From positions 1 through 64,000 of the forward strand of contig NZ_SMMU01000020.1 of NCBI RefSeq assembly GCF_004339665.1: DNA of 64,000 nucleotides. Reading direction: 5' to 3'. Below, in pieces: positions 21,712 through 29,948 of the stretch. The DNA is from Azotobacter chroococcum (lineage in GTDB: Bacteria; Pseudomonadota; Gammaproteobacteria; Pseudomonadales; Pseudomonadaceae). The position numbers were made by a program, and so were the translations under genes. Each line of letters starts with the position of its first letter. Position 1 is the first letter of the stretch. The notes under the pieces are model-generated. The model ran no database searches, was not told the DNA's origin, and worked only from the letters and a program-made list of their open reading frames with translations.

Positions 21712-22476
21712 TCAGTCGCCGGCCAGGGCCGCCTCGCTGAAATAGGGGTTGCGATGCAGCTGCGCCGCCCCATAACGGACCACCAGGCAACCGTTGCGCT
21801 CCACCCGCTCGGCCGCACCGAGCAGGCCCTGCTGGCGGATCAGCACGTCGCCCTTGCGCAGCGCCAGGAGGCGCATGGCCTGGCCGCCCGGCGGCTCCTG
21901 GGCGCGCGCCCGCTGCAAACGCACCTCGAGCTGGCGCCAGCACTCCAGACTCGCACCCTCCTCGTGCATCCGCTGCAACTGGCTGGCCAGCGCCGGATTG
22001 CCGGCGAGCAGCCGGCGCAGCGAGCGGCGGCTGTCCAGGTGGCTGCCCGGCTGAACCTTGAGCCCGGCCTCGAGGGGAATCGGCCGCAGGGCGATCAGTA
22101 CACTCAGATGAGGCGCACTGCCCGCCCAGGCATTGCAGGCGAGCAGCCCCGGCGTACCACCGTCCAGGGCATCGATGCCGAGCAGGTAGCTTCTCTCGCC
22201 GGCCAGCATGTTCAGCGGCGCGAGCAGCCGCTCGTGCAGCACCAGACCGAGAATGCCGGCTGCCTGCAGATGAAAGGCGCCGCGCTGGGGCTGCGCCTGC
22301 GGATGGACCTGGCGCTGCCCGCGGGCCGGCTCGCAGCGCAGGCGGTAGGCGGCCACCGCGGCGGCGTGACGGTCGACCAGGCTTTCGGGGAGACAGCCGC
22401 GCAGCAGGACGAAGCCGTCGCGGGCGAAGGCGAAGCTGTCGATCGGCGGTGCGATGGCGGAGCGTGCTTCCAGCAT
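21712..22476 (-). CDS. PhyH-like (phytanoyl-CoA dioxygenase fold) protein lacking visible metal ligands
   Basis: A 254-residue protein resembling the PhyH family of Fe(II)/2-oxoglutarate oxygenases. It opens with FARDGFVLLRGCLPESLV. The mid-region reads LSVLIALRPIPLEAGLKVQPGSH, and the late block GDVLIRQQGLLGAAERV resembles GDvl...llH. I cannot find the HxD iron motif, and the third His expected after GLL is Gly. An active dioxygenase is therefore doubtful. The ATG at 22476 follows GGAGG by 8 bp. A sigma-54 promoter and NifA site lie upstream, so it is probably expressed with nif. Function unknown. Confidence 0.6.
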   Translation of the reverse strand: MLEARSAIAPPIDSFAFARDGFVLLRGCLPESLVDRHAAAVAAYRLRCEPARGQRQVHPQAQPQRGAFHLQAAGILGLVLHERLLAPLNMLAGERSYLLGIDALDGGTPGLLACNAWAGSAPHLSVLIALRPIPLEAGLKVQPGSHLDSRRSLRRLLAGNPALASQLQRMHEEGASLECWRQLEVRLQRARAQEPPGGQAMRLLALRKGDVLIRQQGLLGAAERVERNGCLVVRYGAAQLHRNPYFSEAALAGD

Positions 22477-22585
22477 GATCCTGGACCTCCTGCGGCAATG
22501 GCATGACGGCTCGACACCGGACAGGCCGGACACGGACCGCATGCGTTATATATTTTTATATATCGATAACAACTGACAAACCTGA

Positions 22586-22603
22586 GTGCAAGGACTTTGC
22601 CAA
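22586..22603 (-). promoter_or_regulatory. sigma-54 promoter of the PhyH-like gene
   Basis: Minus strand TTGGCAAAGTCCTTGCAC: GG and GC 10 bases apart, with a perfect TTGCA -12 and TTGGCA -24. Predicted transcription start is about 22576, leaving a 100-nt leader. Confidence 0.7.
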
Positions 22604-22648: not shown

Positions 22649-22664
22649 TGTCTGGTTATACACA
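22649..22664. promoter_or_regulatory. NifA-type upstream activator site
   Basis: Exact TGT-N10-ACA centred about 80 bp before the PhyH-like transcription start, in the divergent region shared with the ModC-like gene. No convincing sigma-54 promoter was seen facing the ModC-like gene, and no exact IHF site between this element and the promoter. Confidence 0.6.
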
Positions 22665-22864
22665 AAACTACACATATAAACCGGCCTTGTGCCCTAGCCG
22701 ACAAGCCCTCCGGGAAACCCGCGCCAGCAGGATTGCGAGGGGCGGCCGGCGCCTCCCCGGTATGCCCGGACGCGCCAGCGGCGCTCCGCCCGGCCCCTTC
22801 GCGCCCCTCTGCGAGCAGCCTGCTTCCCTTACCTTTTCCGCCCCCTGGGCACGGGAGACTTCAG

Positions 22865-23941
22865 ATGCCAGAACAGGGCCTAGACGCGCAGCTGCGCCTG
22901 CAGCAGGGCACCTTCCAGCTCGACGCCCGCCTGCAACTGCCGAGTGACGGCATCAGCGTGCTGCTCGGCCGCTCCGGCAGCGGCAAGAGCATCCTGCTGC
23001 GCGCCATCGCCGGACTGGAACGGGCCGAAGGCTTCCTGCGCGTCGGCGGACAGCTCTGGCAGGAAGGCGCCCATTTCCGCCCCAGCCACCTGCGCCCGCT
23101 GGGCTACGTCAGCCAGAGCGGCGAGCTGCTCCCGCACCTGGACGTGCGGGCCAACCTCGAGTTCGGCTACCGGCGCGTACCCCGCGCCCGGCGCCGCCTC
23201 GGCCTCGACGAGGTGGTCGCCCTGTTCGGCCTGGAGACGCTGCTCGGCCAGCATGCCGCGCAGCTTCCCAACAGCCAGCGCCAGCGCGTCGCCATCGCCC
23301 GCGCGCTGCTGACCAGCCCCGACCTGCTGCTGCTCGACGCGCCGCTGGCCGGCCTGGATCGCCACAGCCGGGCGGAAATCCTCCCGCTCCTCGAACAGCT
23401 GCGCGAGCGGCTGCAGATCCCGCTGCTCTACGTCACCGACCGGCAGGACGAAGTCACCCGCCTGGCCGACCACCTGGTGCTGCTGGACAAGGGACAGACG
23501 CTCGCCAGCGGTCCGCCGGAGCGGCTGCTGAGCGATCCGCGCCTGCCGCTCGGCCACCCCGACGAAACCGCAGTGGTGCTCATCGGCCAGGTGGAAAGCC
23601 ATGACCCCCATTACCAGCTGAGCAGCATCCGGGTGCCCGGCGGCACCCTCCGCGTCGCTCTCAGCCGTCTGCCGCCGGGCGCGGAGACGCGGGTGCGCAT
23701 CTTCGCCCGGGACGTGAGCCTCTCCCTCGAGCCGCCGCACAACAGCAGCATTCTCAACACCCTTGAGACACGCATCATCGACCTGTTCCACGAGCACGAC
23801 TCGGCGCGGGTCATGGTGCGCCTGGACCTGGGCAGCGCCTGCATCCTCGCGCGGATCACCCGCCTGTCGGCCGACCGGCTGGAGCTGGCGCCGGAGCGGC
23901 GGGTGTATGCGCAGATCAAGTCGGTGGCGCTGATGGAGTGA
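22865..23941 (+). CDS. ModC-like ABC ATPase with degenerate catalytic motifs and a Mop/TOBE tail
   Basis: A 358-residue protein aligned over its whole length with ModC, the ATPase of the molybdate importer. Walker A is intact (GRSGSGKS, residues 35-42) and so is the Q-loop (YVSQ). The signature LSGGQ/E is LPNSQ (134-138). The catalytic Glu after Walker B is Ala159 (LLDAPLAGLD). The switch His is Asp192 (YVTDRQDE). The C-terminal 120 residues keep the Mop/TOBE repeats that bind molybdate. No modA or modB is nearby. The frame is intact, so it looks like a maintained pseudo-ATPase; a molybdate-sensing or storage role is speculation. The ATG at 22865 follows GGGAG. Confidence 0.75.
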   Translation: MPEQGLDAQLRLQQGTFQLDARLQLPSDGISVLLGRSGSGKSILLRAIAGLERAEGFLRVGGQLWQEGAHFRPSHLRPLGYVSQSGELLPHLDVRANLEFGYRRVPRARRRLGLDEVVALFGLETLLGQHAAQLPNSQRQRVAIARALLTSPDLLLLDAPLAGLDRHSRAEILPLLEQLRERLQIPLLYVTDRQDEVTRLADHLVLLDKGQTLASGPPERLLSDPRLPLGHPDETAVVLIGQVESHDPHYQLSSIRVPGGTLRVALSRLPPGAETRVRIFARDVSLSLEPPHNSSILNTLETRIIDLFHEHDSARVMVRLDLGSACILARITRLSADRLELAPERRVYAQIKSVALME

Positions 23942-24121: not shown

Positions 24122-24340
24122 ATGTCCATCAAGGAAATCAAGGCCTTCGCCGAGAAGGCCAAAGCGGACCCGGCCCTCGCCGAAAAACTGAAAACCTGCG
24201 AAAAAGTCCGCGACATCCTCGCCCTGATCAAGGAATCCGGCTTCAGCGTCATCGAGGATGCGCTGTACCCGCCGAACGAGCCGCAGTTCAGCAAGGACCA
24301 GCTGTCGCCGAAGATGGCCAAGGCCCTGCTGCCTGCCTGA
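24122..24340 (+). CDS. Nif11-domain small protein
   Basis: A 72-residue protein with the Nif11 pattern in its first 45 residues: MSIKEIKAFAEKAKADPALAEKL followed by a valine/isoleucine-rich SGFSVIEDALY segment. The C-terminal 25 residues are proline- and lysine-rich. The family was first noted in nitrogen fixers and is best known as the leader region of RiPP precursors elsewhere. No RiPP-modifying enzyme lies nearby and no double-Gly cleavage motif is visible, so a free-standing role is more likely. It has a complete sigma-54/NifA/IHF promoter and its own transcription unit. Confidence 0.8.
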   Translation: MSIKEIKAFAEKAKADPALAEKLKTCEKVRDILALIKESGFSVIEDALYPPNEPQFSKDQLSPKMAKALLPA

Positions 24341-24383: not shown

Positions 24384-24815
24384 TCAGCCGAAACCAATCA
24401 GCACCTCGTAGATCCGTCGCAGCAGTTCGCGGTCGAGCCAGGGCATGCCGATGCTCTGCGGCAGCTCGATCCAGCGGGTGCCGGGCGGCGCCGGAGGGAG
24501 CTCGTGCCCGGACAGGGCCGCCAGATAGACTGGCAGAATCTGCCCCGGCACCTCCATGTTCAGCTGGAACTCGCCGACCAGCTCCAGCTGCCAGTCGAGC
24601 GCCATCGCCTCCTGCAGGCTGCGCAGCGCGCTGGCCGGATGGCACTGCACCGGCGCCTCCTGCGCCTCGGCGATCACCGCCAGCCTGGGCAGGGCCTGCG
24701 GCAGCACCACGCCGCCCTCGGTCGGAATCAGAAAGCGCAGCCGCGCGCTCACCGGATGCTTGTGGCAGAGCAGGATCCGCCACGCCAAATCTTCAGGGGT
24801 TTGTTGTTCGTTCAT
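24384..24815 (-). CDS. unrecognised nif-operon protein, 143 residues
   Basis: Last gene of the operon running from the 27073 ferredoxin. The ATG overlaps the preceding stop (ATGA). The protein begins MNEQQTPEDLAWRILLCHKHPVSARL and is mixed alpha/beta in appearance with Trp pairs near the ends. I recognise no family. Its place and coupling argue for a function in nitrogen fixation. The chosen start removes an upstream extension that overlaps the previous gene. Confidence 0.65.
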   Translation of the reverse strand: MNEQQTPEDLAWRILLCHKHPVSARLRFLIPTEGGVVLPQALPRLAVIAEAQEAPVQCHPASALRSLQEAMALDWQLELVGEFQLNMEVPGQILPVYLAALSGHELPPAPPGTRWIELPQSIGMPWLDRELLRRIYEVLIGFG

Positions 24816-25570
24816 GAGTCCAGACCCAACAGGGCATATTCCACCGGCCCGGCGAACAGCCGGGTACCGCCTCCTTCGGCGACCACCTGACACGCGGCCC
24901 GGGCATCCTGTACCCGTACGCCCGCCAGGTAGTTCACCCCGAACCGTCGCCAGTCGTAGATCCACGGCAGACTCGGCCCCATCAGCACCACCTGGGCGTG
25001 CGACGACAGCTCCAGCAGGCGCGGCAGGGTCTTGTTGGCCAGGCTGCTGGCGGTGATGAACACCCAGTCGGCTTCCGGAAGCAGCTGCTCGACAGCCGTA
25101 TCAGGCAGGTCGCCGTCCTGCGGTTCGCGCTCGAAGCAGCGGTACGGCAGGTCCTGCCAGAGCTGCGCGAGCCCCGGATAGTGGCCGATCACCGCGACCT
25201 TCTGCCCGTCCAGACGCGGCCGGAAGTGCTCGAACACGCTCAGGTTGCCGGGCGCCTCGCCGCGCAGCGGCTGGGCCTGGCGCAGACAGGGCGAGGCGCG
25301 GTTGATCACGGCATTGAGCACCGCCAGCCCCACGGCCGACTCGGCAGTGTTCCAGGACCGCAGCCAGGGGTACAGGCGCTCGCAGGCCTGGCCGCCCAGG
25401 GTGCCGGCCCAGCTCAGGGTGCGTGGCACCTGGCGCGGGCCGAAGGCGAAGCCGAGGCTGTCACCGACTTCCGCCAAGGTCCAGCTGAGACCGAGGCAGA
25501 CCCGCTCGACGGGTTCTTCGCGGGCAACGCCGGTGGCATGCTCCAGCAGCCAGTCGTACAGGCCGTTCAT
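24812..25570 (-). CDS. DUF4213/DUF364 protein (putative heavy-metal-chelation fold)
   Basis: A 252-residue protein. The N-terminal half is the DUF4213 (enolase-N-like) domain with SWTLAEVGDSLGFAFGPRQVPRTLSWAGTLGG. The C-terminal half is the DUF364 Rossmann-like domain with VAVIGHYP, DWVFITASSLANKTLPRLLEL and VVLMGPSLPW. Family members have been proposed to handle transition metals or metal-bearing compounds. The start at 25570 overlaps the preceding stop as ATGA. Metal handling for Fe or Mo in nitrogenase assembly is a reasonable inference, not shown. Confidence 0.75.
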   Translation of the reverse strand: MNGLYDWLLEHATGVAREEPVERVCLGLSWTLAEVGDSLGFAFGPRQVPRTLSWAGTLGGQACERLYPWLRSWNTAESAVGLAVLNAVINRASPCLRQAQPLRGEAPGNLSVFEHFRPRLDGQKVAVIGHYPGLAQLWQDLPYRCFEREPQDGDLPDTAVEQLLPEADWVFITASSLANKTLPRLLELSSHAQVVLMGPSLPWIYDWRRFGVNYLAGVRVQDARAACQVVAEGGGTRLFAGPVEYALLGLDS

Positions 25571-25944
25571 GAGTCGAGCGCCGGCAGCAGGCGGAGCTCG
25601 CTCTTCAGCGCCCCGCGATAGCCCCACGCGGTAGCCGCCTCGATCACCCATGCGGGCTTGCACGGGTGCGGCAGCAGCACGTCGAACTCGGCAAAGGCCT
25701 GGCCATCGCCATGGATCAGCACGCTGCCCAGATAGCCGTTGCCCGGCGTGCGCCATTCGGCATACAGGGACTGGCTGTGGTCGTAGGCGTCCTCGCGCAG
25801 TTCGACGCGGGTATGCGGCGTGCCGGACACTGCCAGGCCCTGGTCGAGTCCGGCGGCGCGCAGGCTGTCGGCCAGCGCCTGCCAGATTTCCGCAAACAGC
25901 GGCCGGGCATCTTCCAGGCGCTTTTCAAGCATCGCATCGGTCAC
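25567..25944 (-). CDS. unrecognised nif-operon protein, 125 residues
   Basis: Starts at a GTG that overlaps the stop of the preceding TPR-like gene by 4 bp. The sequence is alpha/beta with LREDAYDHSQSLYAEWRTPGNGYLGSVLIHGDGQAFAEFDVL split over residues 49-90. I recognise no family. Coupling to both neighbours argues that all products are made together. Confidence 0.65.
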   Translation of the reverse strand: MTDAMLEKRLEDARPLFAEIWQALADSLRAAGLDQGLAVSGTPHTRVELREDAYDHSQSLYAEWRTPGNGYLGSVLIHGDGQAFAEFDVLLPHPCKPAWVIEAATAWGYRGALKSELRLLPALDS

Positions 25945-26782: not shown

Positions 26783-27073
26783 TCAAGCCGCTGCGGCTTC
26801 GTGGGTGTGGCACTGCTTGGGGCAGACCTTGGCGCACGAGGTGCAGCCGATGCAGTCCTGGCCATCCTTGACGGCCATGACCATCATTTCGTCATCGTCG
26901 TCATGATCGTCGTCGGCTTCCATGAGATCGGCGCGGTCGACCAGCTCGAACACATCGCGCGGACAGACCTTGTAGCAGCGACCGCAGCCGATGCAGGTCT
27001 GCGGATTCAGTGCGGTAACAAACTGCGGAACCCACTCGGCGCCGCCACGGGTACGCCCGGTAATCATAGCCAT
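26783..27073 (-). CDS. fdxB: nif-specific dicluster [4Fe-4S] ferredoxin (FdxB type)
   Basis: A 96-residue ferredoxin. Cluster motifs are CIGCGRCYKVCP near residue 27 and CIGCTSCAKVCPKQC near residue 74. Between them lies an acidic insert (EADDDHDDDDE) typical of nif ferredoxin III. It may give electrons to nitrogenase or to cofactor synthesis. It follows orf6 by a 279-bp spacer, so it might have a promoter of its own, but I found no convincing sigma-54 site in that spacer. Confidence 0.9.
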   Translation of the reverse strand: MAMITGRTRGGAEWVPQFVTALNPQTCIGCGRCYKVCPRDVFELVDRADLMEADDDHDDDDEMMVMAVKDGQDCIGCTSCAKVCPKQCHTHEAAAA

Positions 27074-28571: not shown

Positions 28572-29948
28572 TCAGTGCCTCCATTGCGGCTGTTCGGTTG
28601 CGGGTTTCTGCGCATAGATCGAGTGATGGGGCGGGATACCCTGGTGGTTTTCGACCAGCAGGTTGGCCATGTCGAACAGGGCCTGGGTGGTGCCGCGATA
28701 GCCGCACCAGCAACGCTGGAAGCCGCCGACCAGGTCGTACTGCGGGAAGCCGACACGCAGCAGCGGCACGCCCAGACGCTTGGCCGGCTGCAGCGCATGG
28801 CTGTTGCCCAGCACCAGCTCGGCACCCTCGGCGCGCGCGCTGTTTTCCAGGTCTTCCAGATCACCAATCTGGATGGCGGCCAGCGGCGAGCCTTCCAGCG
28901 CCGGGGCACGAGCCGGCACCACCGCAGTCACGGTGCGCGAGCCGACGCTGCGCAGCAGGCGGTCGTAGGCCAGCAGCAGGTCGGGGTCTGCGGCGATGGC
29001 CACCCGGCTATCACCCAGCATGAAATGGGTATCCAGCATGGCGTCCTGCAGTTGCTGACGCTGGCGCTGCAGACGCGGCGGCACCGGGTTGCCGCTCAGG
29101 TTCGACAGCGTGACCAGCCACTGGTCCACGGCTTCCAGCCCCATCAGCAGGCCGAAGCGATGATCCGGCACCCCGGTGCGCTCCTTCAGCAGGTCGGCGG
29201 CCGGGAACAGGCTCTCGCCCACCACCAGGGTGGCGATACTCTGGTTGCAGCTCTTCAGCTCGTCCACGGTCAGGCCGCCAGTGGTCAGCGAGTTGAGGCG
29301 CGACTCTTCCAGGTGGCCGTCCAGCGAGCCGGACAGGTCCGGGATCAACACCGGACGCAGGCCGAAGCCCTCGATGCTTTCGCTGATGAACTCCAGGTCA
29401 CCGGGAGTCAGGCTGGAGGAGCACAGCACGTTGACCTGGCGCTGACGCTGGCCGACCTTGCTGCGGTCTTCCGGCAGCAGGGTATCGATGATCGCCGTCA
29501 CCGTGAGGGCGTAGCCGCTCTCGAAGCTGCCGGAGAAGTCCGGGGTGTTGACGGTCACCACCGGCACGTTGTCGAACTGCGGGAATTTGCTGCGGAACTC
29601 GTGCAGCGCCGAGTGCAGGTCACAGCCCTGGGTTTCCGACAGGCCGGTGGTGACCAGGCCGATCAGGCCGGGCTGGTTCTTTTCGCTGATGACCTTCAGC
29701 GCTTCGACGATGTTGTCGTCGGCGCCCATGATCGAGGTCACCTGATCCATCGCCGTGGTCTGCAGCGGAATCGGCTCACGGAAGTGACGGACGAAGAACA
29801 CCTTGGCAAAGGCGGTGCAGCCCTGGGAACCATGCATGACAGGCATGCTGCGTGCCATGCCGAGGATGGCGAGCACGCCACCCATGGTCTGGCTGGCCTT
29901 CAGCGGACTGACAGCCAGCGCCTTCTTGCGATTGATGATCTCGGCCAT
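28572..29948 (-). CDS. nifN: NifN, cofactor-scaffold beta subunit
   Basis: A 458-residue homologue of NifK. With NifE it forms the scaffold on which the FeMo-cofactor is built. Recognised by [20 protein letters not shown] at the start, [14 protein letters not shown] near residue 40 and the NifK-like order of Rossmann segments. It lacks some of the NifK cluster ligands, as expected. It lies 10 bp after nifE. Confidence 0.96.

Follow-up and report, generated by a model that had tools for sequence, protein, structure and literature searches.

The nif cluster of Azotobacter chroococcum raises the question of why an intact gene of the molybdate-importer ATPase type (ModC) is kept there when several of its ATPase motifs are lost and no transporter partners lie nearby. 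The window analyzed here, that is, the whole stretch of 64,000 nucleotides, carries this gene as a frame open from ATG to stop, whose translation gives a protein of 358 amino acids (Table 1). The product matches the ModC equivalog profile TIGR02142 over residues 7–356 with 353.3 bits (cut-off 285.05), which makes it a ModC by descent. Pfam ABC_tran and TOBE are both above their cut-offs in the protein, and the C-terminal TOBE/Mop domain (PF03459) scores 50.3 bits against a cut-off of 22.3. In addition, the AlphaFold model of the product has a pLDDT of 90.5, and its best fold in the PDB is 3D31, the ModC of M. acetivorans. The original prediction of an intact ModC-like gene with a preserved Mop/TOBE C-terminus was, therefore, borne out.

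The gene is taken to be the orthologue of A. vinelandii NafJ (Avin_01580), a locus tag that was assigned by counting from Avin_01520, the 2Fe-2S protein (PMC4465626), and Avin_01560, NafT (PMC9968304), and not from an annotated record. In the A. vinelandii-like genome G003 the gene order is NafT, Nif11, NafJ, PhyH-like and iscA, which places the gene as NafJ. Likewise, NafJ of A. vinelandii is the only ABC-domain gene found in that stretch of the cluster and has Nif11 and NafT as its neighbours, arranged as in the window. In the literature searched, nafJ appears only as uncharacterized, and no paper on its degeneracy or origin was found. As judged from its sequence, this known but uncharacterized gene encodes a pseudo-ATPase that derives from ModC, is conserved and is under selection.

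Table 1. Positions of nafJ, its motifs and its neighbours in the window.
Feature	Position	Strand	Evidence
nafJ-type gene, degenerate ModC, 358 aa	22865..23941	+	Frame, profile matches, orthologues, predicted fold
Walker A GRSGSGKS, residues 35–42, retained	22967..22990	+	Sequence
Q-loop; Gln84 kept; F83, E85, A86 and S87 replaced in 4/4 orthologues	23102..23131	+	Alignment
ABC signature LPNSQ, residues 134–138, degenerate	23264..23278	+	Alignment
Walker B; Asp158 retained, Ala159 in place of the catalytic Glu in 4/4 orthologues	23336..23341	+	Alignment
Switch position; Asp192 in the window alone, His retained in the three other orthologues	23438..23440	+	Alignment
TOBE/Mop domain, residues 294–356	23744..23932	+	PF03459; S295, N298, T332, S335, K352 kept
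NifA-type upstream activator TGT-N10-ACA	22649..22664	.	Conserved 4/4
Second NifA-type upstream activator TGT-N10-ACA	22688..22703	.	Conserved 4/4
Sigma-54 -24/-12 element TGGCAAAGTCCTTGCA, facing the divergent gene 21712–22542	22587..22602	-	Same place 4/4
Divergent PhyH-like gene, common control region	21712..22542	-	Pfam match weak, just under cut-off
Nif11-domain gene, downstream; own activator site (23982) and sigma-54 element (24042)	24125..24340	+	Domain, motif scan
NafT	24384..24788	-	Matches 9CJF and 8ENO chain E, E=2e-76; PMC9968304

Compared with 36 canonical ModCs, all of which carry S135, G136, G137, E159 and H192, the window protein has LPNSQ in the signature, Ala159 and Asp192, just as originally described, so that of the importer-ATPase set (Walker A, signature, Walker B Glu, switch His) only Walker A, correctly reported as normal, is intact. 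The Q-loop had also been called normal, and this holds for Gln84 but not for its flank, which was overlooked and reads YVSQSGE instead of the canonical YVFQEAS. Residue 83, an invariant Phe in the 36 canonical ModCs, is S, D, G or R in the four NafJs, and residue 85, canonically Glu or Asp, is S, S, T and A. Generally, this flank is the permease-facing region in ABC importers.

One orthologue is present in each of the four Azotobacter genomes, with 82–85% identity to the window gene; among them, that of A. beijerinckii DSM 378 was the only one brought by a scan of genome contigs. E159A and the loss of the first signature Gly (G136) are found in all four, while S135 is lost in three (S135P), and the signatures read LPNSQ, LSAGQ, LPNGP and LPNGP. 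H192D and G137S belong to the window sequence, H192 being lost only there and on the basis of one draft genome, and R146C and Q138P occur in the G002 and G003 orthologues. The three losses are, therefore, of different ages, and only those of the Glu and the signature are common to the genus, since the three other species still have the switch His. E159A is not an assembly error because it recurs in all four genomes, and sequencing error was rejected for E159A and the signature alike, but may still account for H192D. Moreover, the Ala159 codon is GCG, GCA, GCT and GCC across the four genomes, so the third base differs in each while Ala is constant. Walker A Lys41, Gln84, Walker B Asp158, D-loop Asp165 and the Mop residues S295, N298, T332, S335 and K352 are kept in all four NafJs. 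Canonical ModCs have 123 columns with a conservation of at least 95%; the four NafJs all keep 98 of these, and the other 25 differ in one NafJ or more, against 5–17 changed columns in canonical control groups. The changed columns are in excess at residues 129–192 (13/41 vs 12/82, p=0.034), a region picked after the list had been viewed.

The four orthologues are of equal length, with no indel or stop across 358 codons. Under a codon likelihood model with F3x4 frequencies and a single omega, fitted to the four taxa, omega was 0.139 for the whole gene, 0.149 for the ATPase part and 0.125 for the regulatory part, and omega=1 was rejected for each (p=1.5e-54, 4e-36 and 5e-19, respectively). The NafJ value is about twice that of the canonical housekeeping ModC of the same genomes (0.064). 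Neighbours in the nif cluster mostly have omegas of 0.02–0.12, with 0.165 for the PhyH-like gene and 0.174 for the ORF at 25567–25944; the 0.36 obtained for the ORF holding NafT is uncertain because this ORF extends far beyond the start of NafT and overlaps its neighbour. The highest estimated omega within NafJ belongs to the window branch (0.25–0.275; p=0.058 vs the other branches, and below 1 at p=0.012). The next closest sequences in a sample of 399 family genomes are those of G103 (63%), G207 (62%) and G359 (58%), which have canonical motifs and sit in ordinary modABC operons; the omega of the NafJ crown is 0.154 vs 0.052 in the G103/G207 relatives (p=2e-5), about threefold less constrained. 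NafJ is a case of retention under weaker constraint, not of neutral decay. A recent pseudogene in the simple sense was ruled out because the main changes are common to the orthologues and selection is purifying. The original prediction had argued for repurposing from three losses, to be checked by comparing orthologues and dN/dS; retention or repurposing stands on the purifying selection, the shared E159A and the broken signature, but only two of the three losses are shared, that of H192 being confined to the window, so that the three do not form one common event.

No significant match to ModA or ModB was found anywhere in the 64-kb window, in keeping with the earlier remark that transporter partners are absent nearby, and no modAB remnants were found upstream of nafJ. 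A complete modABC1 is present elsewhere in the same genome, and the only close ModB (73%) adjoins the canonical ModC on another contig (G000:C4). The A. vinelandii-like G003 carries an extra modABC (L049, G003:C1:126256-127296) about 24 kb from nafJ, which is absent from the other three Azotobacter genomes and whose ModC lies on its own long branch.

The placement of nafJ within the nif cluster was likewise confirmed, with iscA/PhyH-like on one side of it and Nif11/NafT on the other, an arrangement found unchanged in each of the four Azotobacter genomes. Its start region and ribosome site are conserved among these genomes, and no clear conserved candidate for a sigma-54 promoter of nafJ itself was found on the + strand. 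Single activator sites are weak evidence, with 13 motif matches in the window vs 5.25 in shuffles, and their conservation is the stronger argument. Previous studies reported that the nif-cluster genes on the published map are raised under Mo-dependent fixation (PMC6016461), and that in the ancNif strain, which carries an ancestral nitrogenase, nafJ is up about 1.5-fold, as one of two nif-cluster genes, while mod1 is down about 2-fold (PMC10581106). The neighbour NafT (Avin_01560) binds damaged MoFe protein and was solved in complex with the nitrogenase MoFe protein (PMC9968304).

Several further features of this neighbourhood were observed. NafT is the protein seen on homocitrate-deficient MoFe protein (9CJF/8ENO chain E), and the listed ORF bearing it starts 59 codons too early; the assignment of NafT to 25567–25944 proved wrong by the same structural match. 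The gene at 24812–25570 (-), which overlaps the NafT-bearing ORF, encodes a DUF364/DUF4213 "heavy-metal chelation" protein and is a conserved member of nif clusters in related genera. The PhyH-like gene, of dioxygenase fold, occupies in Azotobacter about the position where relatives have modAB. As well, NifN (nifN, 28572–29948, -) is 97–98% identical among three Azotobacter genomes, and that of G003 (G003:C1:144727-146097) is 74% identical to the others, about an other-genus distance; nifN dS is about 0.6 to G003 vs 0.1 among the other three. By its sequence, the nif segment around nifN looks as if it had been replaced in one lineage. The 4Fe-4S ferredoxin gene at 26783–27073 (-) is intact in three Azotobacter genomes and has a match over only 40 residues in G003; at this place, a 4Fe-4S ferredoxin gene was reported missing from A. 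vinelandii DJ (PMC4465626).

In Stutzerimonas-type nif clusters and in some genomes of another genus (g10), the same slot holds a complete modA-modB-modC with a canonical ModC, mostly beside Nif11, while the other g10 genomes and the g12 genomes read through have no mod genes there. In P. stutzeri A1501 the nif-linked modABC is PST1345-1347, with a NifA/sigma-54 promoter ahead of PST1348 (PMC2820453, PMC11332353); like nafJ, these genes are molybdate-related and lie between hesB/iscA and Nif11. In contrast to NafJ, the nif-linked loci of the P. stutzeri group form a complete transporter, with canonical ModC motifs in those read. In-place descent from the Stutzerimonas nif-linked modABC, which the synteny suggests, was not supported by the ModC tree, where NafJ clusters with G103/G207/G359 and a topology that places it in the nif-linked ModC clade is rejected (AU p=8.7e-5; the clade was named after the tree had been viewed, and branches are long). 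It is plausible that a second modABC entered the slot or replaced the first, followed by loss of modAB.

The reading that we tentatively favour is that NafJ would be a ModC-derived, transport-uncoupled, ATP-binding pseudo-ATPase, acting as a nif-associated molybdate binder, buffer or sensor near FeMo-cofactor assembly. It is suggested by the intact di-domain fold of a ModC, by the loss of E159 and G136 in all four orthologues while the Walker A, Q-loop, Walker B, D-loop and Mop residues are kept, by the purifying omega, by the altered Q-loop flank, by the larger number of changed columns than in canonical controls, by the lack of any modAB remnant where a complete modABC1 exists elsewhere, and by the nif context with NafT, the conserved NifA sites and the published expression changes; the constraint on Ala159 also counts for it, since the silent base varies freely while Ala is retained. 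Against it count an omega about twice that of canonical ModC and about three times that of G103/G207, and the lack of a conserved sigma-54 element toward nafJ. The same relaxation would fit slow decay, in which NafJ is a relic of a molybdate transporter that lost its permease and then its motifs stepwise, held by residual constraint only; the losses do look progressive, with E159A and the G136 change common to all, S135P to three, and H192D/G137S (window) or R146C/Q138P (G002/G003) added after that, and the window branch has the highest omega. Decay is nonetheless unlikely, given an untouched Walker A, four species without indel or stop, a conserved start region and ribosome site, and the rejection of omega=1 for the gene as a whole and for its ATPase and Mop parts taken singly.

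A partnership with the housekeeping system, with NafJ bound to ModC1 or ModB1 so as to inhibit or tune the uptake of molybdate while nitrogen is being fixed, would suit the retained ModC fold and regulatory domain, the intact modABC1 of the same genome and the opposite responses of mod1 and nafJ in the ancNif strain. In asymmetric ABC pairs, however, the degenerate chain keeps its own signature. TM287/288 and BmrCD, which are heterodimers with a degenerate site, resemble NafJ in having lost the catalytic Glu in one nucleotide site, but they are transporters with one full site, whereas in NafJ a single chain lacks both the Glu and the signature in all four orthologues, and no membrane partner is adjacent. 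With the permease-meeting residues beside the Q-loop also changed in all four and only 47% identity between NafJ and ModC1, such a partnership appears quite unlikely. That NafJ is an assembly or repair factor on nitrogenase or on another Naf protein, its ligand binding being incidental, recalls the action of NafT on damaged MoFe protein (PMC9968304) and other Naf proteins that are assembly factors (PMC6016461); this evidence comes from the neighbourhood alone, while the kept Walker A and Mop motifs suggest that ligands matter, and a scaffold role must also be thought rather improbable. It is highly improbable that NafJ is still an ATPase or motor, with some unusual route of hydrolysis and a distant permease as its partner. 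Walker A and the Q-loop Gln are kept, as is the switch His in three species, but the catalytic Glu is Ala, the signature is broken in all four and no ModAB lies beside NafJ.

Under the favoured pseudo-ATPase reading, NafJ would fold as a cytoplasmic ModC-type homodimer that binds ATP without hydrolyzing it and no longer docks ModB. Glu mutants of other ABC proteins offer an analogy for a NafJ homodimer locked with ATP bound, if Ala159 were its only defect; a tight ATP sandwich is less likely because the signature is broken. Molybdate would be bound in the paired C-terminal Mop domains, as has been reported for M. acetivorans ModC, whose C-terminal dimer holds molybdate or tungstate (PMC10710835), and the protein would act in Mo buffering or sensing near FeMo-cofactor assembly, not as a transporter motor. 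The originally proposed binding, storage or delivery of molybdate would fit the retained Mop domain, although its residues may have been conserved for folding and not for holding molybdate. A more specific proposal, possible but doubtful, is that NafJ would be a soluble, hydrolysis-dead ABC switch, in which ATP occupancy of the transport-free homodimer would govern when the Mop domains take up and release molybdate, to feed or gate Mo for FeMo-cofactor synthesis. With importer ModCs (TIGR02142, 3D31) NafJ shares the fold, domain order, Walker A, Q-loop Gln, D-loop Asp and Mop/TOBE tail, but it lacks the catalytic Glu, an unbroken signature, the canonical form of the permease-facing Q-loop flank and adjacent ModA/ModB. 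By their descriptions, the ModG/Mop molbindins resemble it in the Mop fold and in the cytoplasmic molybdate binding proposed here, and the MosAB molybdenum storage protein in linking ATP with Mo, although NafJ, as an ABC di-domain protein, is set apart from both.

Since the pump partners and the ATP-burning residues are lost and yet selection keeps the gene, NafJ probably has a new, non-transport molybdenum job for nitrogenase. This role may be subtle, as many nif-cluster genes are reported in a Tn-seq paper on A. vinelandii to matter little for fitness (PMC12811062). The path that Mo takes between uptake and FeMo-cofactor is understood only in part in Azotobacter, and roles are still to be assigned to many naf genes; a nif-linked ModC that is under selection despite the loss of its ATPase motifs would be a candidate Mo handler and, if the reading is true, a case of an importer ATPase of the ABC family that gave up transport and took on a soluble role.
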